IMG/VR virus record: IMGVR_UViG_3300040806_002115
Location: 1-26,989 of that record
Length of the DNA: 26,989 nt
Strand: one strand, 5' to 3'
Source of the DNA: a virus
Part shown: positions 12,163 through 26,989 of the stretch, in pieces
Position numbering within the stretch: the first letter of the stretch is position 1
How the letters are laid out: the number at the start of each line of letters is the position of its first letter
Program-made: the position numbers and the translations under genes
Notes under the pieces: model-generated
Seen by the model: only the letters and a program-made list of their open reading frames with translations
What the model was told of the DNA's origin: nothing
The model's database searches: none

Positions 12163-12624
12163 ATGAAACAAATAATCTGTAGTGGTGCTTTATTCTACTC
12201 TCTTGACACTCGAAGATTTCTTTTTTTACACAGAAATAATGGTAAAAGAAAAAATCTATGGGGATTAGTCGGAGGTACTAATGAAGATAAGGAAACACCT
12301 TGGGAAGGTCTTCGTAGAGAAGTTGAAGAAGAAATAGGATTTCTGCCAGAAATAGTAAAAACTATGCCATTAGAAACTTTTATATCTAATGATGAGCTAT
12401 TTCATTATCATACATATATTTGTATAGTACAAGACGAATTTATTCCAAAACTAAATTTTGAACATGATGGATATGCTTGGGTTAGTTTTACAAAGTGGCC
12501 CAAACCATTACACGACGGTGTAAGAAATACACTAAACAATAGAGTCAATCAAAAAAAACTACAGACAGTATTTGAAGTTTTAGATTTATTATTAGAGAAC
12601 CGCAATGGAAACAAAACAATTTAG
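12163..12624 (+). CDS. Nudix hydrolase
   Basis: A 153-residue Nudix-fold enzyme with a complete Nudix box, GTNEDKE followed by seven residues and REVEEEIGF (38-60), so all metal-binding acidic residues are present. Such enzymes hydrolyse nucleoside diphosphates linked to another group, using Mg2+. Before the box is WGLVGG; the remainder is a normal Nudix beta sheet and C-terminal helix. Substrate is not predictable: mutagenic nucleotides, dinucleotides, NDP-sugars or RNA caps are possible. It begins 8 nt after gp15 without a clear ribosome site and overlaps the next gene by 20 nt, so it is translated with its neighbours as the first accessory gene after the neck genes. Confidence 0.92.
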   Translation: MKQIICSGALFYSLDTRRFLFLHRNNGKRKNLWGLVGGTNEDKETPWEGLRREVEEEIGFLPEIVKTMPLETFISNDELFHYHTYICIVQDEFIPKLNFEHDGYAWVSFTKWPKPLHDGVRNTLNNRVNQKKLQTVFEVLDLLLENRNGNKTI

Positions 12625-13249
12625 AAATATAGGATATATTTTACACAAACTACAAGATAGTGAGCTGTCTCATATATCCCAACGAATTAAAGATATACAA
12701 GATAATTTTGATACTTCTACTCCGGTAAATTATCAACTTATAGGACAAATTGAAAGAGAATTTGATTTAGGAGATGATAAAAAGTGTCAAGAAGAAATGT
12801 ATAAAATTTTAATGCCGCTTGTAGAAGAATATGAAAATCATTTTACTTATTTAAAAAATAGATCAAGATTATTAGTTGATAAAAGTCCTGCACTTACTTT
12901 AGAAAGTTTGTGGGTAAATTATCAAAAAAAATATGAATTTAATCCTACACATAATCACAACGGCGTATATTCATTTGTGATATGGCACAAAATACCATAT
13001 AGTATAGAAGACGAAAAACAAAATAGTCCAGGTAAAAAAGCAAATAATGCATTAGCTGGACACTTTGAATTTCAATTTACTAATAGTTTAGGAAATATAT
13101 TGCAGGAATCATTGCCTGTAGATAAAGAATGGAATAATACTATCTGTCTTTTCCCTGCTGAAATGATACATAATGTGTATCCATTTTTCACATCAGACGA
13201 TTATAGAATTACAATTTCAGGAAATATAAGTTTGGAGATGCACAGGTGA
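12605..13249 (+). CDS. 2OG-Fe(II) oxygenase-like protein (marine phage type)
   Basis: A 214-residue protein resembling the putative 2-oxoglutarate/Fe(II) oxygenases of marine phages. The core reads LWVNYQKKYEFNPTHNHNG (102-120) with H116 and H118 in place of the usual HxD, then FSVIW-like strand, and a second half CLFPAEMIHN (181-190) with H189 and a later R201 (DYRITISGNI) as the expected co-substrate arginine. The first 95 residues are helical and unassigned. If active it would hydroxylate an unknown substrate; the HxH pair is a known variant of related families (PF13759) but leaves activity uncertain. It lies in an operon with Nudix and cupin genes, overlapping both. Confidence 0.7.
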   Translation: METKQFRNIGYILHKLQDSELSHISQRIKDIQDNFDTSTPVNYQLIGQIEREFDLGDDKKCQEEMYKILMPLVEEYENHFTYLKNRSRLLVDKSPALTLESLWVNYQKKYEFNPTHNHNGVYSFVIWHKIPYSIEDEKQNSPGKKANNALAGHFEFQFTNSLGNILQESLPVDKEWNNTICLFPAEMIHNVYPFFTSDDYRITISGNISLEMHR

Positions 13250-13608
13250 GTGATAATGTAGAGAAACATCCTTGGGGATTTGAAGCAGTATGGGCAAAAG
13301 CAGAAGGCTATGGTGCTAAACATATGATGTTCCTTCAATCAGGAAGTAAAACTGATATATTTTTTCAAAAAAAGACACATAAAACTTGGTTTGTTGCATC
13401 AGGAAATTTTTCTGTAAAATGGATAGATACAAGTAATGGTAAAGTATTTGAATCAAAACTAGAAGAAGGATCTGTATTCGAAGTTGAACCTTTAAGGCCA
13501 GTGTGTTTAGAAGCACTTACAGATAATAGTTCAATTACTGAAGTTAATAACGGTATATACGATGATGATAAATTTATTGTTTACCCTAGTAATAATGTAG
13601 GAATATAA
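13246..13608 (+). CDS. Cupin-fold protein
   Basis: A 120-residue small beta-barrel of mannose-6-phosphate-isomerase-type cupin look: HPWGFEAVWAKAEGYG at the N-terminus, then FFQKKTHKTWFVASGNFSV (39-57), a turn, KLEEGSVFEVEPLRP (71-85) and a final strand. The normal HxH and Glu ligands are reduced to H45 and few others, so metal binding is doubtful and it may be a binding or sugar-modifying protein. GTG start at 13246, overlapping the previous TGA as GTGA with GGAG about 9 nt upstream. It is followed without a gap by the next gene. Confidence 0.7.
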   Translation: MSDNVEKHPWGFEAVWAKAEGYGAKHMMFLQSGSKTDIFFQKKTHKTWFVASGNFSVKWIDTSNGKVFESKLEEGSVFEVEPLRPVCLEALTDNSSITEVNNGIYDDDKFIVYPSNNVGI

Positions 13609-13869
13609 ATGTTACCTAAACTATCAGAATCACAGTTTTTCAAAGACGAACTAAAATTGTTTGAAATTCATATGCAAGATCTATCAAACGACAAAAAAAT
13701 TGAAGCACAAAGAAAGATTGCAAGTCTTTTAGAATTAGTCGAATATGTAGACACAGGTCATACACAAAAAATTGGATCTAGAATAACTCCGTCATTAATG
13801 GATAATACTAGATCACAAATTGTAGATCTTAGAAAACAAATAGCAAAAATTTGTAATATTAGTTTATAG
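13609..13869 (+). CDS. Small hypothetical helical protein
   Basis: An 86-residue, mostly helical, soluble and charged protein with no recognised motif. Its ATG directly follows the stop of the cupin gene (TAAATG), so it is probably translated by the same ribosomes. It ends inside the 3' end of the convergent protease gene, sharing 11 nt. It closes the plus-strand run that starts at gp14. Confidence 0.75.
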   Translation: MLPKLSESQFFKDELKLFEIHMQDLSNDKKIEAQRKIASLLELVEYVDTGHTQKIGSRITPSLMDNTRSQIVDLRKQIAKICNISL

Positions 13870-16800
13870 TTATTACACCGTGCATTGCATCGTGAGCTTG
13901 ACATTGATAATAGTATGTTCCTGTAGTCAATCCAGTTGTATTCCAGGTTACAGTTCCTGAGATGGCTCCTGCGTTTGTTACACCTGAGGCTTGATTACTG
14001 CTACCTGTACCTTGAACAGTCTTGATTAAGAAAGGATGTCCCGGTGCATTAACAGAGAATTCAATAAGATCGCCTTGACTAAATGTTAAACTTACATTAT
14101 TTCCATTTACTGCACCGTTTTGATCTGTACCAACCATTGTGTATGCTCCTGCGCCTACGTTTGTAACGTTAATTGTATAATCAGCCGTTGGTGTTAAACT
14201 TGTATCGTTAATTGTAATTGGATTAGTTGTATAAACAATTGTACCACTAGTACTTCCTGTTCTAATTTGTACTTGGAAGTTTTCTGCACCCTCAGTTCCT
14301 TCATCTGCTGTCGGTGTTACACTAAATGATCCTGCATTGCTGGTAATTGTAAAGTTACCACTTGAAGTGCTAAAATCACTTGCATTTGTAACACTCCAGT
14401 ATAGTGTAGTTGCATTTGCTATGTCTGTTGTTACAACATTTACTGTTAAAGCACTACCTTCGTCGATAGATTGGGCTGCTGGATAAGCATAGTAAGTTGG
14501 ACCAACAGCTTGGCTTGAATCTGTAATACTAACGTTTGTTGATGATTCACCGTTGTCTAGTGCAATTGCTAGTGTTTTATCACCATCAGTGGTTCCATCT
14601 TTTGCTGTGTTGATTTCAAGTGTAGCAGTGTTTGAACTAACTATAAAGTTGCCAGTTAATGAAATTGGTGCATCTGCACTATATCCCGATGCGCCTGCGA
14701 CTGTTGGATCGCCTACATCACCATCTTGGAATATACTTCTAATAGTTGTGAGTGATGGCTTACTAATTACATCTGCTATATGCGTATTAAACAACGCATA
14801 GCCTAACGGATTGTTTGCTAGTATACCTGCTGGCGTGCGCATATCATCTGTCCACTCAGGAGCAAGACTATTGCCGTCCCATAAAGTTGAATAATCAAAC
14901 ATACAGAAGTTTAGCAAGTACAAGTATTCTTTGACTGCTACTTCAAACGCATCGCCGTCTGTCTTCCAGGCATTTGATGGACTTTGATATCCTGATGGAT
15001 CCCATTTGCCTGCATCAAATGCTTCTGCCATTGCGTTATACAAATCACTTGTTGCCCAGTCTGAACTTATGCTAGGATACATTTTTAATGTTGCTGCATC
15101 TAGACCATGCATATGTAGTGTATGGAAGACGTGTTCAATCACTTCTTGTGCATCTTCGTCACCTGTTCCAGGAGTACCACTACTGTTTAAGTACCATACC
15201 ATATCGTTTTGCACTGTTTCATCAAACAATGGCTCTAATCCCCAACTACGTATACCTGCATCGTCTAAGAAGTTTGGTGTATAGTCGCCACCTGCGCCTC
15301 TTGCAATTCGTTGTATAGTTGGTTTCGGTGAGTGATAAGATGTTGTATTACCTAGCAGTGTTTCGATGAATTGATTTTGTTTGCCTGCGTTAATACCTGC
15401 GCCTGCGCTATCAGTAAACAATTGGAACATACGTGCTACTTTTTCGATAAATGCATCTGGCACTGCTGTTTGTCCACCTACTGTGCCTGCACTAACTAAT
15501 CTAACACCTGCTGTCCTAACTTCTCTAGTAAAGAAGTTACTACCATATCCTACAGTATTTCCTACAGCGCCGCTAGCTCTTGGACCAGTATTCAAGTCAC
15601 TTGAATTAACACCTGAGATTGTGTATGGTACGCTAGTTGCATCGGCTACATTTGTTGTAGTAAGTGTAAACGTTGTTTTCTCACCTTCCTGGAGAGAACT
15701 TGAACTTGCAATAAGTGAGTAAGATTCTGCTGCGCCGCCTGGTGTAGTACTTGTATCATTAATTGTAATATCGATGTCGTCTTCACCATTATCTAATGCT
15801 AGGTTCATAACTTCAGAACCTTCTGTAGTAATATCTTCATCAAACGTAAAACTCAATGATGCAAAATTACTGCTAACAGTAAAGTTACCTGTTATGGATC
15901 CACTTGATAAATCTGATGCATCTATACCTGTAATAGTATACGGAATAGTTGTTCCGTTTGATACGTTTGTTGTATTAAGTAAAATACTTATACTATCGCC
16001 TTCATTAACAGTTGTTGATCCAGAGCTTAGTAGATATGTAGGAGAGCCTGTAATACTAGTATCATTGATTACAACACTTACATCTTCGCCTAACCCGTCT
16101 AATGTTAATGTTAAGGATTCAGAACCTTCCGTAGTAGCATCTGCTGCAATATTTATTGCAAGTGTATCTGTATTCGAAGTTATAGTAAACGATCCTGTTA
16201 GTGCTATATCTATATCAGATGCATCAACACCTGTAATTGTATATGGAATACTAGTAGCATCTGCTACATCTGTTGTTGTAAGGGTAATAACAATTGAATC
16301 GCCTTCGTTTACATCTGGAACACTACTTGATAGACTATAAGTTGGCGGTGCTGTACTTGTATCTGCAATAAGTACATTGTCTGATAACGAAGTTGTTCCA
16401 TTTCCGTTACTATCAGTTGCGTCTAATGTTATTGTAAGAGTTTCAGTACCTTCTGTGTCTAAGTCTTCTACAAGATTTAAGCTTAACGTTGATGTATTAC
16501 CTGCAATTGTAAATACACCAGTTAAACTTACTAAGTTGATATCATCTACCGATACACCTGTAATTGTGTATCCAACTGTTGTACTATCAGCAATCTGACT
16601 TGTATTAAGAGTAAACGTAATTGTATCACCTTCATTTGCTGTTTCTACATCTGCTGCAAGACTTGTATATGTCGGAACAATCGGAGTTGTACTAGTGTCT
16701 ATAATAGTAATATTAACGCTATCGCCGCCATTGTTAAGTGCTAGTGTAATTGTTTCAGTACCCTCTGTAGATAAGTCCTCTGCTAATGTAAAGCTAATAT

Positions 16801-19132
16801 TAGAAGTATTATCTACAACTATAAAGCTTCCTGATATACTACCAGAAGTAAAATCATTAGCAGTTATTCCTGTACCTGTAATTGTATATTGAATTGATGT
16901 TCCGTTTGGAATATTTGTAGTTGTTAGATCAACATTAAATGTTCCTCCTTCATTAACAGATGTTGGAGAAGCTACAAGTGAATATGTAGGATCTAAAGAT
17001 GTATCATTAATAGTTATTGGATTTGATGTAATACTAGTACCATTTATACTTAATGTTAATTCTTCAGCACCTTCTGTAACAGCATCTTCTGCAATTACTA
17101 ATTCAATAATTGATTTATTATTATAACCTACATAAAAATTTTCGTTTAAATCTACTGTAGTGTCATTAACCTTTATAATAGAAAATATTGTATCAGGTCC
17201 TGAAGCAGACTCTTCCACTCCTAATCTATATGTATTTCCGTCTGTTGAAGTAAGTAATCCGTTTTCAGAAAAGGCAGAATCTGAATTATAATCGCCTACA
17301 ATTGTTGTATTCCAACGTAATCGATATCTATATCGTTGACCAGGAGCACTACTACCGGTTAATGTTCTAATTACTTCGTATGTATTACTAACATATCTTT
17401 CTTGCCATTGATATAGATTACTAATATCTGAAGTTGTAATTCCCGAAAGTGTAAACGGAATGTCTGTTCCTTCGTCTATATTTACTGTTGTAAGGGTGTA
17501 TCTTACTGTGCCGCCTTCGTTGATGCTGGTAACATTTTGAGATAGATAATATAACGGAATAGTAGTAGAAAGCGATACAGTACCAGATAACGATAAGGGT
17601 TGTTTTCCGTATTTCGAAAACATCATTCTATTAGGACTGCCCATTAATGATGTTTCGTATGCTGTATAATCTGAATCTAATCCTGTAGAATATAATACAT
17701 CTTTACTTTCAGCTATTAATTTATTTTTTATTTGTAACGGAGTTGCATTAGGGTCTACTTGTAAATGAAGTGCAATTAACCCAGCAACTTGAGGAGATGC
17801 CATACTTGTACCGCCGATGTTTGCAATTTTATACCCTGGAGTAAAATAATCTCCTGCACTTGAACCAAATACATTAGTGTCACTACAAGCACTTATTATA
17901 TCAGTTCCTGGTGCCCAGAAATTTGTGCCAGGTCCTTTATTACTACTACCTGCTGTTTTATCTCTAAATACTACACCATCTTGTTGTGTAGTACTATCTA
18001 CATTGCCTACAATAAATGCTTCTTCGCTATATGGACTAGATCCTTGATGATACTGAGTAGTAAGTCCACTAAAAGTTACTTCGTTGTTGTAATCAAGGCC
18101 TGTAGGCACATCTATTTTATAATATTGATTTCCTGATGCAATGCATACATGTATTCCTGCATCAATCATATCTTCAATCTCTGCATCAATTTGCGCTAAT
18201 CTTATGGGAATTCTTCTAGATGTGCCGCTTGCGCCGGTTAGTTGAGGGACTATGCCATACGTTTGCCATAACTGATTTTGTGTTTCACCGGTATAAGACC
18301 ACGGTGTTCCTCGATATGTTCCTCCAGTTGGATCAGTAGTAGTAATTGTTCTACCATATCCCCAACTCATATTTACTACTGTAGGACGTCCGTTAGTTTT
18401 TGCTAGGTGCCATAATCGAATCACATCAAAGCAGTCGGTTGTGCTTATGCCTCCATTTGGATCCGAAGGACCTTCTAATCCTGAAACTTTTACTGCATAT
18501 ATATTTGCATTTTTAGCCCAGCCATATGTTTTGCCTGCGGTAATTCCTGCGCAATGTGTTCCGTGTCCATGATAATCAGTATAATGTCCTGCAGGCATTG
18601 TGCCAGGTAATCCACTTTCGCTATACCAATCAAGTTCTATAAATCTACTGGCTCCTTGCATGTTTTGCCATTCTGGGTGATCGGCACTAGTACCTGTATC
18701 TTGTATTACTACATCGACATCAGTTCCATCAAGCCCATAAGGATAAAATCCATCTGGTGCAGTAGTTCCAGAAGAATACGAATTTATATCATCAATACAT
18801 CTTCTAAGACCCCAGTTTGCCTTTGTATTGTCTACTGCTGAAGTTTTATCAAAGTTAAATCCTTGTGTAAGATGAAGCATTTTATCTATACCGTCTTGTT
18901 GATCTATCGGTATTTCTACTGCTTCTACTCTTGGATCATTTTTTAATCTTTCAGCTTCTTCGTCACTTAATAGCCAGTTAGTCATTCTCTTGGAGCCCGG
19001 CCTAGAATTTGCAACATCTACTGATCTTTCAGGTATAAATTCGTTTCCGGTTGAGCTGGATAATTCTGTATCTAATTCTTCTAAATTATTATTTCTTTTT
19101 ACAACTACTACATATTCTTTTTCGGTGCTCAT
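13859..19132 (-). CDS. Giant subtilisin-type protease with Calx-beta-like repeats, nested domain and cupredoxin-like C-terminus
   Basis: A 1757-residue protein. Residues 1-100 resemble a short inhibitor-like lead. Residues 105-505 are an S8 peptidase with the triad D145 (VVIQDTGTS), H190 (GHGTHCAG) and S443 (GTSMASP), and oxyanion N335 (ASGNQ), so proteolysis is expected. From about 523 to 1645 lie seven Calx-beta-like repeats with recurring 'VNEG', 'TEGSE' and 'INDTS' turns, normally calcium-binding adhesion modules. Inside one repeat, residues about 1183-1488 are a separate helical domain with an EHVFHTLHMH cluster (1333-1342). Residues 1650-1757 are cupredoxin-like with H1699, C1744, H1747 and M1750. 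There is no signal peptide. The ATG overlaps the fibre stop (ATGA). It is most likely a tail-associated, receptor- or matrix-degrading protein. Confidence 0.9.
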   Translation of the reverse strand: MSTEKEYVVVVKRNNNLEELDTELSSSTGNEFIPERSVDVANSRPGSKRMTNWLLSDEEAERLKNDPRVEAVEIPIDQQDGIDKMLHLTQGFNFDKTSAVDNTKANWGLRRCIDDINSYSSGTTAPDGFYPYGLDGTDVDVVIQDTGTSADHPEWQNMQGASRFIELDWYSESGLPGTMPAGHYTDYHGHGTHCAGITAGKTYGWAKNANIYAVKVSGLEGPSDPNGGISTTDCFDVIRLWHLAKTNGRPTVVNMSWGYGRTITTTDPTGGTYRGTPWSYTGETQNQLWQTYGIVPQLTGASGTSRRIPIRLAQIDAEIEDMIDAGIHVCIASGNQYYKIDVPTGLDYNNEVTFSGLTTQYHQGSSPYSEEAFIVGNVDSTTQQDGVVFRDKTAGSSNKGPGTNFWAPGTDIISACSDTNVFGSSAGDYFTPGYKIANIGGTSMASPQVAGLIALHLQVDPNATPLQIKNKLIAESKDVLYSTGLDSDYTAYETSLMGSPNRMMFSKYGKQPLSLSGTVSLSTTIPLYYLSQNVTSINEGGTVRYTLTTVNIDEGTDIPFTLSGITTSDISNLYQWQERYVSNTYEVIRTLTGSSAPGQRYRYRLRWNTTIVGDYNSDSAFSENGLLTSTDGNTYRLGVEESASGPDTIFSIIKVNDTTVDLNENFYVGYNNKSIIELVIAEDAVTEGAEELTLSINGTSITSNPITINDTSLDPTYSLVASPTSVNEGGTFNVDLTTTNIPNGTSIQYTITGTGITANDFTSGSISGSFIVVDNTSNISFTLAEDLSTEGTETITLALNNGGDSVNITIIDTSTTPIVPTYTSLAADVETANEGDTITFTLNTSQIADSTTVGYTITGVSVDDINLVSLTGVFTIAGNTSTLSLNLVEDLDTEGTETLTITLDATDSNGNGTTSLSDNVLIADTSTAPPTYSLSSSVPDVNEGDSIVITLTTTDVADATSIPYTITGVDASDIDIALTGSFTITSNTDTLAINIAADATTEGSESLTLTLDGLGEDVSVVINDTSITGSPTYLLSSGSTTVNEGDSISILLNTTNVSNGTTIPYTITGIDASDLSSGSITGNFTVSSNFASLSFTFDEDITTEGSEVMNLALDNGEDDIDITINDTSTTPGGAAESYSLIASSSSLQEGEKTTFTLTTTNVADATSVPYTISGVNSSDLNTGPRASGAVGNTVGYGSNFFTREVRTAGVRLVSAGTVGGQTAVPDAFIEKVARMFQLFTDSAGAGINAGKQNQFIETLLGNTTSYHSPKPTIQRIARGAGGDYTPNFLDDAGIRSWGLEPLFDETVQNDMVWYLNSSGTPGTGDEDAQEVIEHVFHTLHMHGLDAATLKMYPSISSDWATSDLYNAMAEAFDAGKWDPSGYQSPSNAWKTDGDAFEVAVKEYLYLLNFCMFDYSTLWDGNSLAPEWTDDMRTPAGILANNPLGYALFNTHIADVISKPSLTTIRSIFQDGDVGDPTVAGASGYSADAPISLTGNFIVSSNTATLEINTAKDGTTDGDKTLAIALDNGESSTNVSITDSSQAVGPTYYAYPAAQSIDEGSALTVNVVTTDIANATTLYWSVTNASDFSTSSGNFTITSNAGSFSVTPTADEGTEGAENFQVQIRTGSTSGTIVYTTNPITINDTSLTPTADYTINVTNVGAGAYTMVGTDQNGAVNGNNVSLTFSQGDLIEFSVNAPGHPFLIKTVQGTGSSNQASGVTNAGAISGTVTWNTTGLTTGTYYYQCQAHDAMHGVITIN
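14669..15586 (-). other. Domain nested inside a Calx-beta-like repeat
   Basis: The repeat beginning near residue 1137 stops at SSDLNTG and resumes about 305 residues later with SLTGNFIVSS, where neighbouring repeats run straight through (for example ASDLSSG then SITGNFTVSS). The intervening segment is helical, not Calx-like, with a His-rich helix at 1333-1342. Two 60-nt blocks inside it (14941-15000, 15121-15180) are 47% GC by hand count, against 18% (17101-17160) and 35% (16021-16080) in flanking repeats, which suggests separate ancestry. Boundaries are approximate. Confidence 0.75.
15840..17080 (-). repeat. Tandem Calx-beta-like coding repeats
   Basis: DNA of the central repeat array of the protease gene. 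Units of about 300-315 nt recur with the same order of short motifs (NEG turn, YTITG strand, GNF strand, EGSE turn, INDTS end), and antisense reading frames stay open through them because of this regular composition. It is a protein-level repeat with moderate sequence divergence, not a CRISPR or identical DNA repeat. Confidence 0.75.
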
Positions 19133-20310
19133 GTTATGCTTCCTGTATCTAATTCAATCCAGTTTCCGTTTTGATATGCTTCTATTTTATTAGAAGTTGT
19201 ATTATATATCATATCTCCATTTGCTGAAATTAAACCATCTCTATCTGTATCACTAAAACTAGGCAATCTTAAAGGGCCGCCTGTAATAGATACACCGTCG
19301 CCTGTACTTATTGTTAATCTTGCTGCTGTTTCTAATTCAGCATTTCCTATTCCTGTATTTTTTAATGAGCTTGTTTCTATTGTATTTGCAATGAGATCTC
19401 CGAGTATTAAATCTGTCCCGGATTGTATGCTAGGAGGATCTACAAAGGTTACTACTCCGCTACCGTTAGTTTGTAAAAATTGTCCAGTATCGCCATCTGT
19501 TACTCCTAAATCAAAAAATTCAGTTGGTTTTGGTCTTACAAACGATCCGCTTGACTCTACATAAACATATAATAGTTCATCATCACTATCAAACCATAAA
19601 GTACCATTTGTAGCTTCAGATGGTTGCGATGGACTAACTGTAATATTTGCTCCGCTATCATCGGCGCCGCTGCCTGTTCCTGGCATACTCACAGTTATAG
19701 TATTTCCCATAAGTGTATGATTTTGACACCAATAATAAAGTGTTTCAGGAGTTGACGTTGTTACTGTAATTTGTACTTGTCTTGTTTTAGATCTTTGAAA
19801 ATCTCTCCAGTATTCTGCTTGTGTTACTTCTTCACCGTTTAGAATATATATTACATTTTCTAAATACGATGTGCCGCCGCCGAGTTCGCCACTAGCGTTG
19901 TCTGAACTAAAATTTAACGGGTGTTGATTATTTTCACCACCTTCAACATTTGGAAAATATACATTTGTTTGATCTGTTTGATCAAAAACATAAGTGTAAC
20001 CTACTACCATTGATATTGCGGGCTTATACTCTCCGTTTAGCACATACTTGTTTCCGGAATCACCACCTTGTGGGCCTGTAATAGTTACATTATATTTTAC
20101 AGTTGCTATCTCTTTTGCAGCAATATTTCTAGGTAACGATTCGTCAGTAAGTACTTCAAATCCGCCTCGGTTTATAGTTCTGCCACTATACACTCTTAAA
20201 GTATTTGTTTCTTTACTAAAAAATACCTCACCGCTAGAACCTGTAGCTCTATCTAAAAATTCTTTTGCTCTAGGAATTATCCTTATACGATCAACAATAG
20301 GTGATGCCAT
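19129..20310 (-). CDS. Fibre-like virion protein with cupredoxin-like domain
   Basis: A 393-residue protein. Residues 1-55 hold a hairpin typical of phage fibre or structural proteins (GEVFFSKETNTLRVYSG). Residues about 70-210 are a cupredoxin-like beta barrel with potential type-1 copper ligands H130 (NNQHPLNF), C195 and H198 (YYWCQNH) and M201. Residues 225-260 and 360-390 repeat the hairpin (GTLWFDSDDELLYVYV; GDMIYNTTSNKIEAYQNGNW), and the region between is beta-rich and possibly trimeric. A late-promoter octamer is at 20334-20341. Its stop overlaps the protease ATG, so the two are likely made together and may form one tail-side assembly. The virion role is inferred. Confidence 0.8.
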   Translation of the reverse strand: MASPIVDRIRIIPRAKEFLDRATGSSGEVFFSKETNTLRVYSGRTINRGGFEVLTDESLPRNIAAKEIATVKYNVTITGPQGGDSGNKYVLNGEYKPAISMVVGYTYVFDQTDQTNVYFPNVEGGENNQHPLNFSSDNASGELGGGTSYLENVIYILNGEEVTQAEYWRDFQRSKTRQVQITVTTSTPETLYYWCQNHTLMGNTITVSMPGTGSGADDSGANITVSPSQPSEATNGTLWFDSDDELLYVYVESSGSFVRPKPTEFFDLGVTDGDTGQFLQTNGSGVVTFVDPPSIQSGTDLILGDLIANTIETSSLKNTGIGNAELETAARLTISTGDGVSITGGPLRLPSFSDTDRDGLISANGDMIYNTTSNKIEAYQNGNWIELDTGSIT

Positions 20311-20347: not shown

Positions 20348-21877
20348 TTAATCTAGTTGTCCTGTATATTCCCATAATATATTTTCTTGTTTAATAGTTT
20401 CTGTAAACTGATCAAATCTATAATTAGCACGATATATTCTTTCTACTCTATCATGTAATTCTTTAAGTTCTTGCTGTGCTTGATTTATACTAAAATCGTT
20501 TAGATATTTCGAACAAACTTCAGGTGAAAGTTGACCAGTTTGTATTAATATATAGCTCCACAATTGCCATCCTGCTGCTCCGGGATACGACGGAAAATCA
20601 TAAAGTGTTGGCATTTTAGTTTTACACATTTCTCGAATCATTTTTGAAAATTCTGTTTCAATTGCGCCGCTTGTAATGTATTTCCAAAATTCACTATCTG
20701 TACGTCCGCCCATATAATGTGCTACAAGAAAATCTTTAAAATCGTCAAACATTTTGTTTACTCTTTTATTGTATGCTTTAATACATGCAGGATTTAAAGT
20801 TGTTTCTAAATCATCTTTTAAGTATTCAAATGCAAAGTATTTAAGTTGTACAATTGCGCCATGAATTGAAGTAGCTTCTAAAGGTTCTGCAAAAGTGCTA
20901 CTAAGCCCAATGGTTAAACAATTCTTAACCCATGTATTTTCTAGTCTTCCAGTATCAAAAGTAAATGGATCTCTTAATGGTTCAATTTTTCTACCAAGAG
21001 TTTTCTCAATTTCATTTAATGCTTCGTCGTCACTTATAAAATCACTACAATATGTATAGCCGCAGCCTTTCCTTGTTTGTATAGAAGCTTGCCACATCCA
21101 GCCGGCTGATAGCGCCTGAGCTTCTGTATAAGGATCTGGTTTTGTAGTGTCGTTGTACTGTAAGAAGAAGGGTATAGCTCTATCAACAGGTAAATTTTCT
21201 TTATAACAAATCCATTTTGTTCCTAATTTATTAGCTAGTATTCGTCTAAATCCTGAACAATCTATATAGAAATCAGAGTCTATAATTGTTTCATTATCTA
21301 ATATCAGCTTGTCTATTCTTCCCTTTTCGTCTTGTGTTACTTCATTTATTATTGCATCAATTAATTCAACATTTTCATAACGTGTGCAAACTTTTTGTAA
21401 GTAATCGGCTACTAGTCTTGCATCAAAATGCCATGCATGTGTCTGTTCTTCATAAGTTCCTGTTCTTTTAAGTATAGGCGCTGTTCTAGCTTCCATTAGA
21501 CACCCAAAATATGTACCTCTATGTAAATTTTGTTTATCGTTTACTGCTAAGAATGAAGTTACACTATCAGGTAAATTTAAAGCAGTTGGAGTTCCGTCTA
21601 TCGGCGCAAAGTAATTATAATCCTTTACCCAATCTTTATGCAATATTCCATACTTAGGCATTGCAGCTGTCTTTTTTACAAAATCTAACGGATCGATACC
21701 AAAGTCACCGTAAGTTCCTAATATAAAATCCATTAGTTCTCCAGTTACTCCTTCGCCGGCTCCGAGTATTCCAATTTTACTCGATGCAACTATTTTAATT
21801 TTTGCATTTGAATTATGTGCTAAAAATAAAGCCGATATCCATCCTGCTGTACCGCCGCCGACTACTGTAATTTCCAT
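20348..21877 (-). CDS. Tryptophan-halogenase-like flavoprotein, divergent
   Basis: A 509-residue member of the flavin-dependent halogenase family (PF04820 type). It has the FAD-binding GGGTAG (7-12), the halogenase lysine position K75 in MPKYGI, DCSGFRR (206-212) and EPLEATSI (331-338). In typical members the chloride-site Ser-Thr pair follows this Glu; here Ser is Ala335. The usual WxWxIP motif is WMWQAS (260-265). Such enzymes use FADH2 and O2 to make hypohalous acid, passed to the lysine for halogenation. The substitutions may mean altered halide or substrate, or another oxidation. The phage halogenase VirX1 of a cyanophage, which iodinates varied compounds, shows phage members can be active. 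Divergent from the oxygenase operon; late box at 21927-21934. Confidence 0.88.
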   Translation of the reverse strand: MEITVVGGGTAGWISALFLAHNSNAKIKIVASSKIGILGAGEGVTGELMDFILGTYGDFGIDPLDFVKKTAAMPKYGILHKDWVKDYNYFAPIDGTPTALNLPDSVTSFLAVNDKQNLHRGTYFGCLMEARTAPILKRTGTYEEQTHAWHFDARLVADYLQKVCTRYENVELIDAIINEVTQDEKGRIDKLILDNETIIDSDFYIDCSGFRRILANKLGTKWICYKENLPVDRAIPFFLQYNDTTKPDPYTEAQALSAGWMWQASIQTRKGCGYTYCSDFISDDEALNEIEKTLGRKIEPLRDPFTFDTGRLENTWVKNCLTIGLSSTFAEPLEATSIHGAIVQLKYFAFEYLKDDLETTLNPACIKAYNKRVNKMFDDFKDFLVAHYMGGRTDSEFWKYITSGAIETEFSKMIREMCKTKMPTLYDFPSYPGAAGWQLWSYILIQTGQLSPEVCSKYLNDFSINQAQQELKELHDRVERIYRANYRFDQFTETIKQENILWEYTGQLD

Positions 21878-21926
21878 AAATTATCCTTTTATATAAGTAT
21901 GTATCTAAAAAATTAACTGGGTACTT

Positions 21927-21941
21927 TATTTATGGTAAATA
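21927..21941. promoter_or_regulatory. Late-type boxes between divergent halogenase and oxygenase genes
   Basis: Minus CATAAATA (21927-21934) fits the halogenase at 21877. On plus, GGTAAATA (21934-21941) overlaps it head to head, but lies only about 18 nt from the oxygenase start, so a usual start site would leave little leader. The minus box is the more credible one. Confidence 0.4.
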
Positions 21942-21958
21942 CTTTGCAAGGAGTTCAT

Positions 21959-22558
21959 ATGGAATTAAATTTTGAATATCTTTTTTCAACATATCTAACT
22001 ACTTTAAAAAATCTTAATATTGATAATGATTCTTTAGAAGAGTATGCATACTTGCAAAGAGAAAACGATAACGGTGTAGAAAAAAGTAACTGGAAGGGCT
22101 GGCAAAGCGACACTTTAGAAGAACAAAATTCTGAAGTTGAAAAGCTATGTTCTATAATAGAAGACGCATGTAATGAATTAAAAAATAACTTAGGATTTAA
22201 AAAACACTTAATTCCAAAAATAAACAATATATGGCTCAATATTAATTCTAACGGATCTTTTAATCGCCCACATTTACATCCTGGTAGTATATTTTCTGGA
22301 ACGTATTATATAAAAAAATCAGCAGAAGATGGAAATATAGTATTTACTACACCTTGTGTGCAGCAACAATATCATATAGAAAAAGAGTTAATAGACCAAT
22401 TTCATCCTACAACATCAAGTGTATATACTATTCCCGCAGAACCTGGTACAATGATATTATTTCCGTCATGGGTAGAGCATTTTGTTGAACCGAACAACAC
22501 AGATGTAGATAGAATTTCCATTGCATTTAACGTAGCATTATTAGAGGATAAAAAATGA
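21959..22558 (+). CDS. 2OG-Fe(II) oxygenase (PF13759 type)
   Basis: A 199-residue protein with a good match to this family. WLNINSNGSFNRPHLHPGS (92-110) carries H105 and H107, then FSGTYYIKK, a GNIVFTTP strand, and FPSWVEHFVEP (168-178) with H174 and R185 (RISIAFN). These give a likely iron site and 2-oxoglutarate arginine, so a hydroxylase or related oxidation is expected; the substrate is unknown. I start at ATG 21959 because AAGGAG sits 5 nt upstream; an ATG nine codons earlier lies inside the putative promoter. It overlaps the second halogenase start (ATGA), so both are translated together. Confidence 0.88.
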   Translation: MELNFEYLFSTYLTTLKNLNIDNDSLEEYAYLQRENDNGVEKSNWKGWQSDTLEEQNSEVEKLCSIIEDACNELKNNLGFKKHLIPKINNIWLNINSNGSFNRPHLHPGSIFSGTYYIKKSAEDGNIVFTTPCVQQQYHIEKELIDQFHPTTSSVYTIPAEPGTMILFPSWVEHFVEPNNTDVDRISIAFNVALLEDKK

Positions 22559-24015
22559 AAAATTTAGTGATTGCAGGCGGCGGCACTGCAGGCTGGTTTG
22601 CAGCATTGTATATGAAAAAAATATTTCCACAGTCTAATGTAACTGTAATACAAAATAAAGAAATAGGAATAATAGGTGTAGGCGAAGCAACAACACCAAA
22701 AATTTTAGATTTTTTAGATTCATTAGGTATACACCCACTAGATATAATACCTCATATAAAAGGCGGAATAAAAAACGGAATAAATTTTGAAAATTGGAAC
22801 GGCGACGGAAACCGCTACATGCATGCGTTTGATGATAAACTAGTTGATTTTAAAATAGATAATATTTTTGACTCAAAATGTTTAGATTATTATCATAAAC
22901 TTTTAATATCAAAGAACTTACCTTTTGACGAATATATATACCAAACAAAAATAGCATATCAAAATAAAGTAGATATTTATAATACAGACTGGGCGTTACA
23001 TTTTGATGCTGCCGAAATGGCTTCTTATTTAAACAAAATAGGAATTGAAAGAGGTATTAATGTTGTTGAAGATAAAATTATAGGTGTTGAATCAGATGAT
23101 AGAAATTTTGTATCTATAATAAAATTAGAATCTGGCAAAGATTTAAATTGTGATTTTGTTTTCGACTGTACAGGATTTAGAAGAGAAATAATAGGAAAAT
23201 TTTACAAAGAAGACTGGATTAGTTTTAGAGATTATATGCCTATGAAAAAAGGTATACATTTTTGGTTGCCGCAGCAAGACGATGTAGAACCGTTTACTAG
23301 TGCTATTGCATTAAAATACGGGTGGAGTTGGAAAATACCATTACCGCATAGAATAGGATCAGGTTATATATACGATTCAGATTATATTTCAGATGAAGAA
23401 GCATTACTCGAAGCAGAAGAGTTTTATAATCAGAAATTAGATGTTAGAAGAACTATTCCATTTGATCCGGGAAGATTTAAAAATTTATGGGTTAAAAATT
23501 GTATTGCACTAGGTCTTGCTGGTAGTTTCTTAGAACCTTTAGAGTCAACTTCTATATGGCAAACTCTAAACCAATTAGAAGAGTTAAAACATTTCTTAAA
23601 TGACCTTGATAAAGACACTCCTAGAGATTTATATAACGAAATGATTGGAAATAGTATTGAATATAAATCGTTATTTGTATACTTACATTATTTTACAAAA
23701 CGATCAGATACGTTGTTTTGGAAGGAATTTAAAGAAAAACATCCTGTACCAGAAAAATGGAAACATATTTTTGACAAACTTAAAGCAGGGGATTTAAGAT
23801 TTATGGATATCGGTAATATAAAAATTCCAGGACACTTTGGATTAACAAGTTATACACAGGTAGGACACGGTTTAGAATATATAGATTCTATTAATATGGA
23901 TAATTATCAAAATATAAATCCTAGCATCGAAGAATATAAAAATCTTATAGACGAAAAAGATAAAACTACAGCAGTTAATCATACACAGTTTTTAAAGTGG
24001 CTAGAAACTAGATGA
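22555..24015 (+). CDS. Tryptophan halogenase, canonical motifs
   Basis: A 486-residue flavin-dependent halogenase. It keeps the family hallmarks: GGGTAG (8-13), GVGEATTP (41-48), the catalytic lysine K73 in IKNGINFENW, WSWKIP (257-262) as the exact WxWxIP motif, and E330-S331-T332 in EPLESTSI, which corresponds to the glutamate and chloride-binding pair of PrnA. It should therefore chlorinate or brominate an electron-rich ring when given FADH2 and halide; no flavin reductase is visible nearby, so the host's would be used. Substrate is not deducible. It is flanked by an oxygenase (ATGA overlap) and a carbamoyltransferase (ATGA overlap). It differs clearly from the divergent halogenase at 20348-21877, so it is not a recent copy. 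Confidence 0.92.
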   Translation: MKNLVIAGGGTAGWFAALYMKKIFPQSNVTVIQNKEIGIIGVGEATTPKILDFLDSLGIHPLDIIPHIKGGIKNGINFENWNGDGNRYMHAFDDKLVDFKIDNIFDSKCLDYYHKLLISKNLPFDEYIYQTKIAYQNKVDIYNTDWALHFDAAEMASYLNKIGIERGINVVEDKIIGVESDDRNFVSIIKLESGKDLNCDFVFDCTGFRREIIGKFYKEDWISFRDYMPMKKGIHFWLPQQDDVEPFTSAIALKYGWSWKIPLPHRIGSGYIYDSDYISDEEALLEAEEFYNQKLDVRRTIPFDPGRFKNLWVKNCIALGLAGSFLEPLESTSIWQTLNQLEELKHFLNDLDKDTPRDLYNEMIGNSIEYKSLFVYLHYFTKRSDTLFWKEFKEKHPVPEKWKHIFDKLKAGDLRFMDIGNIKIPGHFGLTSYTQVGHGLEYIDSINMDNYQNINPSIEEYKNLIDEKDKTTAVNHTQFLKWLETR

Positions 24016-25724
24016 ACATATTAGGAGTTAACTTTAATTCACATTGTTCTGCTTGTCTTATAGTAGATAATGAAGTAATCTATTTCAATCAAGAAGAAAG
24101 ACTGTCTAGACAAAAAAACGATAGCGGTATTCCTTATCTTTGTCTAGAAGAAATAAAAAAAATAGAAACAAAAATAGATTTATTACTTGTAACAGGTTAT
24201 AATTATAATATTAATAACGGTTTTTATTTGTTAAACTTTCTTAATAAAAGCGGTTTTAATATAAAAGAATGGTACGGTTATTATAAATCACATCATTTAG
24301 TTCATGCTGCAAAAGCCTTAAACGATAGCGGCTTCGATGATGCTCTTGTGTTTGTACAAGACGGAAAAGGGTCATCGTATATGTTATCAAACGGTTATGA
24401 AAGTGTAGAAACTACTAGTATATTTGAGTATTCAAAAGATAAAGGCTTTTCTTGTGTGTATAAAAATTTGTTTTCTCACTATCATACAGCAAGAAATTTA
24501 GAAGTTGAAACAGATATATTTCCTATTGTAGATCACGAATATGAAAAGGCTTATTCGTTCCCAGAAAATGGCCTGTATAAAGATACAAAATTTAACATTA
24601 CTAATTACTTTGATTTAGGATTATTATATACTATAACAGGGCAGTGTTGCGGATTTACTGATGACGGCGGGAAATTGATGGGACTTCAAAGTTACGGAAC
24701 TAACGACAGCAAATTACCAGATGTACTCTTTGATGATTATAAAATTAACATGGACATATTTACACTAGATCAATCTAATATATATAATAATGAATTTAAT
24801 TATGAAAAATATCCGTATTTAGAAACAGAACAAAAGAAAAAAAACTTTGCTTATAAAGTACAAAAATCTTTTGAAGAGAAACAACATAATTTAATATTAA
24901 AATATCTAAAGAAAACGGGAAAAAAGAATTTAGTAATGTCTGGAGGAACTGCATTAAATGTAGTAGGAAATGGTAAACTATTATCTAAACTAGATTCTGA
25001 TATTAATATTTTTGTTGAACCTGTTTGCGGCGATGAAGGTAATAGTATAGGAATTTGTAATCTGTATCTATTAGAAAATAACATAAAGACATCTTTCAAT
25101 ATTTACAATTGTGGGACAGATCCCGAATACAATTATAATTTACTTGAGTTTGAATCTGAAAAAAAAGTTACTAATCAAGACATTGCTGAACTTATTGCCA
25201 AGGGCGCAATTGTATCGTATTTCCACGGAAAGGGAGAAGCTGGTCCTAGAGCATTAGGAAATAGAAGTTTATTATTTAATCCTAGTATAATAGATGGTAA
25301 AGACATAGTTAATCAAGTAAAAGGAAGAGAAAGCTTTAGACCTTTTGCATGTAGTATACTTGAAGAACATGCAAAAAACTGGTTTGACTTTAAAGGTCAA
25401 AATTCTTCTCCTTATATGATGTTTGCCCTTGAATGTAATAAAGATGTAGAAAAAATAATTCCCAGTGTGATACATGTTGATGGTACTTGCAGAGTACAAA
25501 CTGTAAATATAGAACAAAATAAAAATTATTATAATTTAATTAACGAGTTTTATAAAATTACAAATATTCCTTTACTTTTCAATACATCATTTAATCTAGC
25601 AGGCGACCCTATTGTACATACAGTACAAGATGCATTAGAATCTATAAGAAATAGTAAAATAGAATATTTATATCTGCCTGAAATTAACACCTTAATACAT
25701 AGTGAGAATCTTTATGAAAACTAA
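24012..25724 (+). CDS. Carbamoyltransferase (NodU/TobZ family)
   Basis: A 570-residue protein of normal length with both domains. The N-terminal Kae1-like part has H11, a HHLVH metal site (H94, H98) and FVQDGKGS (D117); later GGTALN (311-316) and PVCGDEGNSIG (337-347). The C-terminal YrdC-like part has GEAGPRALGNRS (408-419) and KGRESFRPFA (437-446), followed by NTSFN. Enzymes of this type use ATP and carbamoyl phosphate to place a carbamoyl group on a hydroxyl of a sugar or small molecule. The neighbouring hydroxylases could create or accompany such a site (inference). The conserved 'HD' near H11 is HC here. ATGA overlap upstream; 11-nt overlap downstream. Confidence 0.93.
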   Translation: MNILGVNFNSHCSACLIVDNEVIYFNQEERLSRQKNDSGIPYLCLEEIKKIETKIDLLLVTGYNYNINNGFYLLNFLNKSGFNIKEWYGYYKSHHLVHAAKALNDSGFDDALVFVQDGKGSSYMLSNGYESVETTSIFEYSKDKGFSCVYKNLFSHYHTARNLEVETDIFPIVDHEYEKAYSFPENGLYKDTKFNITNYFDLGLLYTITGQCCGFTDDGGKLMGLQSYGTNDSKLPDVLFDDYKINMDIFTLDQSNIYNNEFNYEKYPYLETEQKKKNFAYKVQKSFEEKQHNLILKYLKKTGKKNLVMSGGTALNVVGNGKLLSKLDSDINIFVEPVCGDEGNSIGICNLYLLENNIKTSFNIYNCGTDPEYNYNLLEFESEKKVTNQDIAELIAKGAIVSYFHGKGEAGPRALGNRSLLFNPSIIDGKDIVNQVKGRESFRPFACSILEEHAKNWFDFKGQNSSPYMMFALECNKDVEKIIPSVIHVDGTCRVQTVNIEQNKNYYNLINEFYKITNIPLLFNTSFNLAGDPIVHTVQDALESIRNSKIEYLYLPEINTLIHSENLYEN

Positions 25725-26343
25725 TTATATTATAGTTGACGACTTTTACGATAACCCTTGGGAGATAAGACAACGTGCATTAGAATTAGAATATAAAAAA
25801 ATAGAAGGTGCTACATATCCTGGTTTAAATTCTTTAGGATTTTTATATAATAATGAAATGCATAAAAATATCGAAGGTATCTTAAATACAAAATTAGAAA
25901 ATCCAAAAGACATGCAAGCTGGATATTTTCGTATTTCTCACGAAGATGCCGATGCTGCACAAGATATACATATAGATCCAGACTTTGACTATGGAGGTGT
26001 ATTGTTTTTAAATCCGGCAAATCAATGTACAAACAATGCCGGTACTAGTTTTTATACACATAAAATATTAGGAATCGATAAAGGTCCAAAAAATTTAGAA
26101 GAAGTTAAACAACTAGGATTTCCAGGTTATGAAAATTTTGTAAACGAAATGATTTATGGCGATTGTCTTGATAGATCAAAATGGGAACGATATTGTAGAA
26201 TACCTTACAAATTTAATAGACTAGTATTATTTGATAGCCATTTATGGCATAGTCATGGAGTTAATTTTGGAAATAATTTACAAAATTCTAGATTAGTACA
26301 ATTATTTTTTTATAAAAGGTTAAAAAATGATACAAGTATATGA
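25714..26343 (+). CDS. DUF6445-type putative 2OG-Fe(II) oxygenase
   Basis: A 209-residue protein matching the layout I associate with DUF6445: YPGLNS (35-40), AGYFRIS (69-75), then DIHIDPDFDYGGVLFLNPA (84-102) with HxD (H86, D88), GTSFYTHKILGID (110-122), and NRLVLFDSHLWHSHG (168-182) with the second His and R193. This is the iron-binding triad and arginine of the 2OG oxygenase fold. The substrate is unknown. I start at ATG 25714, although a GTG four codons earlier is in frame; the ribosome site is weak and translation is probably coupled to the carbamoyltransferase, whose stop it overlaps. It overlaps the next gene by 17 nt. Confidence 0.85.
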   Translation: MKTNYIIVDDFYDNPWEIRQRALELEYKKIEGATYPGLNSLGFLYNNEMHKNIEGILNTKLENPKDMQAGYFRISHEDADAAQDIHIDPDFDYGGVLFLNPANQCTNNAGTSFYTHKILGIDKGPKNLEEVKQLGFPGYENFVNEMIYGDCLDRSKWERYCRIPYKFNRLVLFDSHLWHSHGVNFGNNLQNSRLVQLFFYKRLKNDTSI

Positions 26344-26833
26344 CGATTTTTTAGACAAAAATATTTTTAAAAATATACAACGTGAAGTAATGTTTGATGA
26401 TATTCCTTGGTTTTATAATAACGGAGTTCTAGGAACCCATAAAGAAAATTTACGAGATTATCAACTTACGCATACACTTTTTGTAGATCAAAGAATTACA
26501 TCAAAATATTTTGAAGTGTTTGAACCTTTATTATTTAAAATAAAACCTTTAGCAATTATTAAAATAAAATTAAATTTAAATTTATATAGCGGCGAAACTA
26601 TACACGAGCACGGATATCATTCAGATTATGAAGGTACTAGAGATGAAATAATGTCTACTGGTATTTTTTATTTAAATGATAATAATGGGTATACAATATT
26701 TGAAGAATCAAAAGAAAAAGTATTATCTAAATCAAATAGATTCTTAGAATTTCCAACTACAAAAAAACATAGCGGAAGCACAAGTACAGATACAAAAAAT
26801 AGAATTGTTCTAAATTTAAATTATATAAAGTAA
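26327..26833 (+). CDS. 2OG-Fe(II) oxygenase, P4H-like
   Basis: A 168-residue compact oxygenase. Signature residues are H98 and D100 in GYHSDY, FYLNDNNGYTIF (114-125), NRFLEFP (137-143), H148 and R159 (NRIVLNLNYI), which together form a full HxD...H...R set. Related phage and bacterial proteins are taken as hydroxylases of proteins or small molecules; nothing here fixes the substrate. It is the last gene of the plus-strand enzyme operon. The next reading frame, on the other strand, ends 2 nt beyond its stop. Confidence 0.88.
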   Translation: MIQVYDDFLDKNIFKNIQREVMFDDIPWFYNNGVLGTHKENLRDYQLTHTLFVDQRITSKYFEVFEPLLFKIKPLAIIKIKLNLNLYSGETIHEHGYHSDYEGTRDEIMSTGIFYLNDNNGYTIFEESKEKVLSKSNRFLEFPTTKKHSGSTSTDTKNRIVLNLNYIK

Positions 26834-26834
26834 A

Positions 26835-26989
26835 TTAGTATACCCACGAAACATAACTATATCTAGTTCCCTTTGTTACTGGTTCTACTTTGTGAGGATA
26901 CATAAAGTTACTAGGAAAAATTAAAACGGCACCTGGAGGAATATCTATTATCGTATCCCACATAACAAACTCGCCACCTTCATAATTAT
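26835..26989 (-). CDS. 2OG-Fe(II) oxygenase, C-terminal part (5' beyond window)
   Basis: A minus frame enters from the right edge, runs 50 codons and stops at 26835-26837. Its product has YEGGEFVMWDT, then PPGAVLIFPSNFMYPHKVEP and GTRYSYVSWVY. This is the usual end of a P4H-like oxygenase: the second iron-binding His is in PHKV and the 2-oxoglutarate Arg in GTRYS. It is convergent with the previous oxygenase gene, separated by one base between stop codons. As it is partial, the length and first half are unknown. Confidence 0.8.
   Translation of the reverse strand, partial: NYEGGEFVMWDTIIDIPPGAVLIFPSNFMYPHKVEPVTKGTRYSYVSWVY

Follow-up and report, generated by a model that had tools for sequence, protein, structure and literature searches.

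An enzyme island of T4-like marine phages abuts, in relatives, a glycine-rich gene within the tail-fibre block

The IMG/VR virus record IMGVR_UViG_3300040806_002115, 26,989 bp long, is analysed here over its whole length ('the window'). Judged from its gene content, it is a fragment of a T4-like myovirus, with genes for tail sheath (phrog_10581), tail tube, head closure, neck Ad2 and sheath stabiliser. From position 20348 to the right end, where the record breaks off inside it, runs an island of enzyme genes: two flavin halogenase-family genes (hal1 and hal2), several 2-oxoglutarate (2OG)-Fe(II) oxygenase-like genes and one carbamoyltransferase (CT) gene. The island is real, conserved and under purifying selection, and what is new here is that in relatives it abuts a glycine-rich PF21722 gene within the tail-fibre block. 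Our best reading, held with something short of even confidence, is that the island serves the post-translational modification of a tail-fibre protein.

Results

Genes of the island

The island comprises, in this order:
20348..21877, minus strand: hal1, PF04820 flavin halogenase-family protein, 509 aa (PF04820, E 3.1e-89)
21932..22558, plus strand: 2OG-Fe(II) oxygenase, phrog_81, 208 aa, upstream of hal2 and overlapping it (PF13759, E 5.8e-23)
22555..24015, plus strand: hal2, predicted PF04820 flavin-dependent halogenase (PF04820, E 2.4e-105)
24012..25724, plus strand: NodU/TobZ/GdmN-type O-carbamoyltransferase, 570 aa, activity predicted (PF16861, E 1.3e-58; PF02543, E 1.4e-22)
25702..26343, plus strand: DUF6445/phrog_1644 protein, 213 aa, possible 2OG oxygenase (HxD...H...R pattern only)
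26327..26833, plus strand: phrog_274 protein, 168 aa, 2OG-oxygenase-like (phrog_274, E 2.5e-43; model fold)
26836..26987, minus strand: phrog_61 2OG oxygenase, partial, with the C-terminal 50 aa within the record (phrog_61, E 1.2e-15)

Profile matches bore out the genes and coordinates of a first-pass annotation, which had described, from the sequence alone, a dense set of tailoring genes beside tail genes, five of them translationally coupled. The five plus-strand genes indeed overlap by 4, 4, 23 and 17 bases (the 23-base overlap shrinks to 11 if an in-frame ATG is used instead of the GTG start), and a gap of 54 bases separates the first of them from hal1, which shares the minus strand with the partial phrog_61 gene. 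All cassette genes have full-length open frames except this partial gene at the record end. With so short a gap and with overlapping plus-strand genes, no precursor of a ribosomally synthesised and post-translationally modified peptide was found inside the cassette among open reading frames (ORFs) of at least 60 aa.

By profile and motifs, hal2 is a flavin-dependent halogenase of predicted activity: in alignments it keeps GxGxxG, the catalytic lysine (K73) and glutamate (E330), and the WxWxIP motif as WSWKIP. The roles of WxWxIP, lysine and glutamate in flavin halogenases are described in part in PMC8407142 (here and below, papers are cited from excerpts of their text). While the catalytic Lys and Glu positions are retained in hal1, all 6 of the 6 hal1-clade sequences carry WxWxA instead of WxWxIP, as does L045_b. 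The 'two halogenases' of the first-pass annotation thus stand as family members, both matching PF04820, and are an assumption when it comes to activity, since hal1 lacks WxWxIP. In a 39-row tree, hal1, hal2 and a third halogenase, hal3, present in 4 of 10 records compared, formed separate starred groups, which argues for three distinct slots rather than recent duplicates; HTVC008M grouped with hal2, and P-SSM2, S-H38 and S-SCSM2R with hal3. A scan of genome contigs for cellular relatives of hal1, based on two short patterns, gave 105 candidates, none of which was confirmed.

VirX1 (PDB 6QGM) resembles the window proteins in its PF04820 domain and catalytic Lys and Glu, and hal2 also in WxWxIP. 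Its identity to them is low (hal1 ~27%, hal2 ~30%), and the window pair falls outside the starred clade holding the S-CREM1 halogenase, the closest match of VirX1 (60%), so that neither is a VirX1 orthologue. The tree row labelled Syn10_VirX1 is the neighbouring CPUG_00132; VirX1 itself is absent from the tree.

The CT carries both Carbam_trans_N and Carbam_trans_C domains and is, as annotated, of the NodU/TobZ type. Its solved relatives TobZ, GdmN and the novobiocin carbamoyltransferase act in antibiotic pathways.

Among the four proteins that had been called 2OG oxygenase-like, those starting at 21932 and 26836 (partial) belong to the 2OG-Fe(II) family by profile, and that at 26327 by the fold of a moderate model; for the DUF6445 protein at 25702 the call comes from HxD...H...R, seen by eye, its own model being so poor (pLDDT 44.3) that it gives no usable fold. 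The G004 counterpart of the partial gene is 96% identical and matches PF13640. The 26327-26833 protein has no Pfam match at E 0.001. Its model (pLDDT 66.8, pTM 0.70) matches 2OG oxygenases; protein prolyl hydroxylases (PHD2, Pseudomonas P4H, Dictyostelium and PBCV-1 types) make up 49 of the 50 PDB entries listed as matches, with a TM-score to the query of ~0.5-0.6. The PHROG names of phrog_274 ('DNA endonuclease V') and phrog_1644 ('minor coat protein') are probably wrong for these two proteins.

Conservation of the island in relatives

A hal2 profile scan of viral contigs, of which the best 80 of 319 relatives were kept, gave 81 loci together with G004, a close relative of 200 kb; these correspond to 47 representatives at 90% halogenase identity. 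A minus-strand halogenase followed by a 2OG gene and a halogenase on the plus strand occurred in 12/81 loci, with a CT downstream in all 12. The order hal1(-)/2OG-hal2...CT was found in 9/47 representatives, two of which (L005 and L008) share the window's backbone, and altogether 13 records beside the window, including 3300008111_002653 (pieces L040 and L099), have hal1 on the minus and 2OG-hal2...CT on the plus strand. The first-pass annotation would have counted independently scattered homologues against its proposal; instead, the neighbourhood is conserved in the same order over deep divergence, protein identity to the window being ~40-56% in distant records.

In all records with this order, the hal1 side of the island is flanked either by NUDIX/sheath-stabiliser genes or by fibre/subtilase genes, and NUDIX adjoins hal1 where a relative has no subtilase/fibre pair in this position. 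The other side, where the contig reaches that far, carries further 2OG genes, in some cases also hal3, followed by a fibre block; in relatives, the island continues past the right end of the window, where the first-pass annotation had left it. Neither the subtilase-domain protein nor the 393-aa fibre protein beside hal1 can serve as a general substrate, since G008, L038, L039 and L041 have the cassette but lack both genes in this position.

Within five genes of hal2, the 47 representatives have a 2OG gene in 36 cases, another halogenase in 11, a CT in 12 and a virion gene in 23, counts that include many incomplete loci and use gene labels from profiles grown from the same phages. A 2OG gene adjoins hal2 in 25/47, a modest excess over the 17.3 seen in within-locus label shuffles (sd 2.9, maximum 27 in 1000).

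Purifying selection and exchange of single enzymes

Three records, G001, G002 and G004, are 94-99% identical to the window at the protein level, with hal2 at either 64% or 98%. Between them and the window, cassette orthologues are under purifying selection, with dN/dS of 0.02-0.16 (0.25 for the swapped hal2 allele). The full-length frames, the order shared with 13 other records and these ratios make the cassette more than a chance assembly.

In G002 and G004 the hal2 allele has been exchanged, as seen from 64% protein identity vs 95-99% for the adjacent proteins. Nucleotide identity in 100-column steps is 60-86% over hal2 (22548-24035) vs 89-100% on either side, and dS between window and G004 is 1.12 for hal2 vs 0.11-0.19 for neighbouring genes. 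Gene 26327-26833 is cleanly missing in G004 and missing in G002 too. Conserved orthologues together with the hal2 swap and 2OG loss suggest a unit that is old and kept, with single enzymes being exchanged.

A glycine-rich gene at the far end

In G001, the stretch past the window's end holds more 2OG genes, a phrog_274-like gene and, ~3 kb on, genes for two proteins of 186 aa and 333 aa, the longer of which is 30% glycine. The island ended at such a glycine-rich gene of ~330 aa beside fibre genes in 5/5 relatives annotated across this end (G001, G003, G004, G007 and G008). The G004 orthologue (L021 3884-4885) matches PF21722, adjoins an S74-chaperone fibre protein, a small fibre protein and a 2341-aa fibre protein, and is the sole ORF above 20% Gly among the 201 called in this genome. 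From the surrounding fibre block, and from the annotation that PF21722 genes carry in S-WAM1, P-RSM6, P-TIM40 and Sf-FR1 (tail fibre or fibre assembly), we infer that the protein is a tail-fibre tip.

An alignment of five tip sequences has 170 invariant columns out of 327, covering 81/98 Gly, 9/11 Trp, 10/18 Tyr and 11/22 Pro. Identity across lineages is 66-70% for the tip, 60-61% for neck Ad2, 39-66% for the S74 protein and 32-37% for the 186-aa protein. That the tip is better conserved between lineages than neck Ad2 is unexpected for a receptor-binding tip. The gp38-type polyglycine adhesins, the receptor-binding tips of T2-type phages (PMC12892980), offer an analogy; the tip gene has PF21722 and 30% Gly, yet its sequence has no match in the PDB at E 1. 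Members of each phage group share a homologous small gene between tip and enzymes; between groups the match is only at E 0.005, and we therefore do not claim one shared chaperone. A search for a Trp- or Tyr-rich substrate among composition outliers yielded no clear candidate.

Halogenases lie near PF21722 genes in other phages

We located PF04820 and PF21722 genes in 20 genomes, namely G004 and 19 named phage records (one per phage name, from 60 listed of 80). The records had been picked before the glycine-rich idea arose, with tail-fibre adjacency already noticed after the first eight. PF21722 matches count only above the cut-off, which excludes weaker ones in P-SSM2, S-CREM1, Sf-FR1 and Syn1, and the split halogenase fragments of S-SSM7 and P-TIM40 were merged into one each.

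PF21722 was present in 13/20 genomes. The nearest halogenase lay ≤1.5 kb from it in 8/13 (Syn10, P-TIM40, Sf-CH11, S-CREM1, S-WAM1, P-RSM6, Sf-FR1 and S-SZBM1), where random rotation of the halogenases predicts 0.67, and ≤10 kb from it in 11/13 (2.3 expected), G004, S-SSM7 and HTVC008M being added; in HTVC008M, the distance to the tip gene is 8 kb. Removing P-RSM6 and S-SZBM1, which are kin of S-WAM1, left 6/11 and 9/11 (p about 1e-5, from a rotation that disregards remaining phage kinship and gene clustering). PhoH, used as a control, gave 0/12 and 1/12. Two genomes below the PF21722 cut-off, S-SRM01 and DSL-LC01, have their halogenase beside glycine-rich or collagen-like fibre genes by eye and are uncounted. 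Of the 2OG genes, 42/156 lie ≤10 kb from a glycine-rich gene vs 20.7 expected (over-cut-off matches, transcribed by start position). Among the 47 loci, a set largely separate from the 20 genomes (common to both are L008, which is G004, and L108, which is HTVC008M), 21 have exactly one Gly-rich ORF (20% Gly and 150 aa, a threshold we set), mostly near 300 aa and 1-9 kb from the halogenase.

VirX1, recognised by matching PDB 6QGM, is CPUG_00131 of Syn10 and sits beside two PF21722 genes. It forms the second half of an overlapping halogenase gene pair (L049 5995-9100); its neighbour is annotated as tryptophan halogenase and VirX1 itself as hypothetical protein.

Comparison with known gene sets

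The statement of the first-pass annotation that halogenases and carbamoyltransferases are known singly in marine T4-like phages was mistaken: a cluster of halogenase, carbamoyltransferase, 2OG oxygenase and cupin genes has been published for S-SSM6a (Iyer et al. 2021, PMC7824862), S-SSM7 has a comparable set, and overlapping halogenase pairs occur in Syn10, P-TIM40 and P-RSM6. S-SSM6a (known here from its paper) and S-SSM7 resemble the window in that its families of enzymes are coupled within a single block, which in S-SSM7 (NC_015287) ends beside gp13/gp14 and includes genes annotated as cysteine dioxygenase and 'minor coat protein'. Whereas theirs holds one halogenase and two CTs intermixed with heptose genes, the island of the window has two halogenases (three in some kin) and no recognised sugar genes. 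The S-SSM6a combination of CT, halogenase, 2OG and cupin-like genes is also found in the window, its cupin-like member being the cysteine-dioxygenase-like gene at 13246, 6.7 kb from hal1. Neither a HemK-like methylase nor a HAD phosphatase was among the general profile matches of the window, no search having been aimed at either.

In Syn10, P-TIM40 and P-RSM6, halogenases and 2OG genes directly follow glycine-rich tail-fibre genes, and runs of 2OG genes come after the halogenases in P-TIM40, S-CREM1, S-WAM1 and P-RSM6. The first three differ from the window in having no adjoining CT and in their halogenases belonging to another clade. The Pelagibacter phage HTVC008M has a 2OG gene directly before a hal2-clade halogenase (gp78-79; 46% identity) and a block of four 2OG genes (gp69-72) between the Gly-rich gp65 and neck genes; unlike in the window, its halogenase lies between terminase genes and its CT elsewhere.

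Discussion

Modification of the tail-fibre tip

The observations on gene order, placement and exchange are consistent with the cassette being one half of a conserved 'tail-dressing' island in T4-like marine phages. During virion assembly, the halogenases, supplied with reduced host flavin, would halogenate aromatic side chains of the phage adhesion apparatus, and 2OG oxygenases of the prolyl-hydroxylase fold would hydroxylate side chains of the same apparatus. The likeliest target would be the glycine-rich tip protein at the far end of the island, ~3 kb past the window in G001. The CT could then cap a hydroxyl left by the oxygenases, or one on a fibre-attached sugar. Since the tip is well conserved while enzymes are swapped, these modifications could adjust receptor binding or protect the tip. 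Such a modification would account for the placement of the island, the prolyl-hydroxylase fold, the conserved tip aromatics, the missing adenylation domains, and the swapping of enzymes while the tip stays constant. Of the substrates that the first-pass annotation had offered (virion protein, host glycan or host metabolite), location favours the first.

Several points weigh against modification of the tip. The CT is poorly explained by it, and lies ≤10 kb from a PF21722 gene in just 3/8 genomes. hal1, without WxWxIP, is classed as a PF04820 family member and putative halogenase. Both halogenases would need a host flavin reductase, and PF01613 was found in 0/6 records searched. The phrog_274 fold model is moderate, and a substrate does not follow from a fold. 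As to the tip, its matches to tail-fibre PHROG families are weak (phrog_863, E 2e-5), its best match is to a family of unknown function, and PF21722 is partly compositional. The association itself has gaps: the halogenases of P-SSM2 and S-B64 lie ~64 kb from the PF21722 gene, 7/20 genomes have a halogenase and no over-cut-off PF21722 gene, Gly-rich ORFs in the 47 loci are less frequent up to 3 kb from the halogenase (4/267) than farther away (17/226), and many HTVC008M-like phages place a hal2-type gene between neck and terminase genes. Because fibre neighbourhoods often recombine, which the random rotation does not take into account, adjacency may be hitch-hiking. Finally, no modified protein is known, and the virion proteomes of S-CREM1 (14 proteins) and S-SCSM1 (45) report, in the excerpts consulted, neither such a modification nor a search for one.

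A bolder proposition, which we consider possible though doubtful, is that marine T4-like phages in general chemically modify their own receptor-binding tip, producing halogenated, hydroxylated and possibly carbamoylated glycine-rich adhesins, and vary adhesion by swapping enzyme cassettes over a near-constant tip; VirX1 and many fibre-linked 2OG oxygenases would then have their native role here. Genes for prnA, 2OG oxygenases and carbamoyltransferases have long been listed in cyanophages (PMC3037559, PMC2984593, PMC10452541); for the 24 2OG genes of S-SCSM1 and the ten of S-CREM1 the explanation given was host reprogramming, and for the S-CREM1 halogenase a possible role in antibiotic protection (PMC9602691, PMC9964418). 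A resemblance of phage 2OG proteins to human EGLN3 (PMC12774648) and methylation of virion protein (PMC13288928) have been reported. The excerpts of PMC8407142 and PMC12645471 do not state a native substrate for VirX1. We found no literature linking halogenases to tail fibres within a coverage that leaves out most subscription papers. The island ties VirX1 and the marine-phage 2OG oxygenases to one testable target, the glycine-rich fibre tip, and so allows the function of viral halogenases to be tested specifically. If the proposition is true, halogenation joins virion chemistry, and host recognition diversifies in a manner invisible to surveys of fibre sequences.

Alternative explanations

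The main rival, which we deem unlikely, is that the enzymes act in the synthesis or decoration of a halogenated, hydroxylated and carbamoylated amino-acid or sugar metabolite or of a host surface polysaccharide. S-SSM7 mixes CT, 2OG and halogenase genes with heptose-pathway genes and an epimerase, one HTVC008M CT sits in a sugar cluster, KdsA/KdsB-like, GT8, sulfotransferase and radical S-adenosylmethionine (SAM) genes occur elsewhere in G004, and the solved CT relatives serve antibiotic pathways. A metabolite or capsule pathway is also how Iyer et al. 2021 (PMC7824862) interpret the S-SSM6a cluster. However, the placement among tail genes is constant, and the island contains no recognised sugar or scaffold gene in the relatives annotated. 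The absence of scaffold enzymes asserted by the first-pass annotation held for the AMP-binding domain (PF00501), found in 0/6 records (200 kb, 147 kb and four fragments of 41-54 kb), polyketide synthase, terpene-cyclase and condensation domains being unsearched.

Less probable still is a dressing of the virion with glycans, in which hydroxylation would ready fibre sites for phage-made sugars, the CT would carbamoylate the sugar, and the halogenases would act on the protein or aglycone. In DSL-LC01, a halogenase and then a glycosyltransferase follow collagen-like genes. G004 does have sugar-nucleotide and glycosyltransferase genes, but these lie ~27-44 kb away from the island, within which no glycosyltransferase was recognised.

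We give slightly less credence again to a hot spot, in which the region from neck to fibre genes, being prone to recombination, gathers auxiliary genes with unrelated targets, such as 2-oxoglutarate modulation (Sullivan et al. 2010, PMC3037559). The hal2 swap and the presence or absence of a 2OG gene among near-identical phages would fit, as would the scatter of 2OG genes, most of them (all but the 42/156 above, though this exceeds expectation) farther than 10 kb from a Gly-rich gene, and the modest excess of 2OG genes beside hal2 over label shuffles. Against this stand the purifying selection and a gene order kept across lineages at ~40-56% identity.

Carbamoylation of 5-hydroxymethylcytosine in DNA, of the type of Yang et al. 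2021, is very improbable: NodU-type CT and oxidases are both there, but DNA-modifying carbamoyltransferases of that family were marked by pairing with a thymidylate-synthase homologue (PMC8670742), and this partner (thymidylate-synthase/dCMP-hydroxymethylase, PF00303) was found in 0/5 records, namely G004 (200 kb) and four fragments.

Further genes of the window and of G004

The tail region to the left of the island holds additional enzyme genes that the first-pass annotation had left out of its cassette (the first three below) and the two genes beside hal1:
12163..12624, plus strand: NUDIX hydrolase (profile match)
12605..13249, plus strand: additional 2OG oxygenase (phrog_81)
13246..13608, plus strand: cysteine-dioxygenase-like (cupin-like) protein (phrog_7851)
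13859..19132, minus strand: subtilase-domain repeat protein, 1757 aa (Pfam and PHROG matches)
19129..20310, minus strand: tail fibre/baseplate-type protein adjoining hal1 (PHROG match)

A homologue of the 12605-13249 oxygenase stands between hal2 and CT in G003, G007 and L043. The subtilase-domain protein measures 1445 aa in G004 vs 1757 aa in the window, its C-terminal part being changed. The late T4 promoter TATAAATA occurs twice in the window vs 7.4 expected, both times within genes on the opposite strand. The tail sheath protein (4637-7972) is unusually long at 1111 aa, and there are two tail-tube-like genes (2615 and 3894).

In G004, sugar-building genes lie at 9-25 kb (L018 8902-10377, L019 3481-5581) and encode a KdsB-like cytidylyltransferase, a KdsA-like protein of the DAHP-synthase family, a sulfotransferase, a GT8 protein and a nucleotidyltransferase-mannose isomerase fusion. 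A second tailoring-like region follows tail-fibre-like genes at 139-173 kb (L025 1174-19096, L026), where six radical SAM genes, two with an N-terminal SPASM domain, were found among 17 proteins scanned, together with a TauD-like oxygenase.

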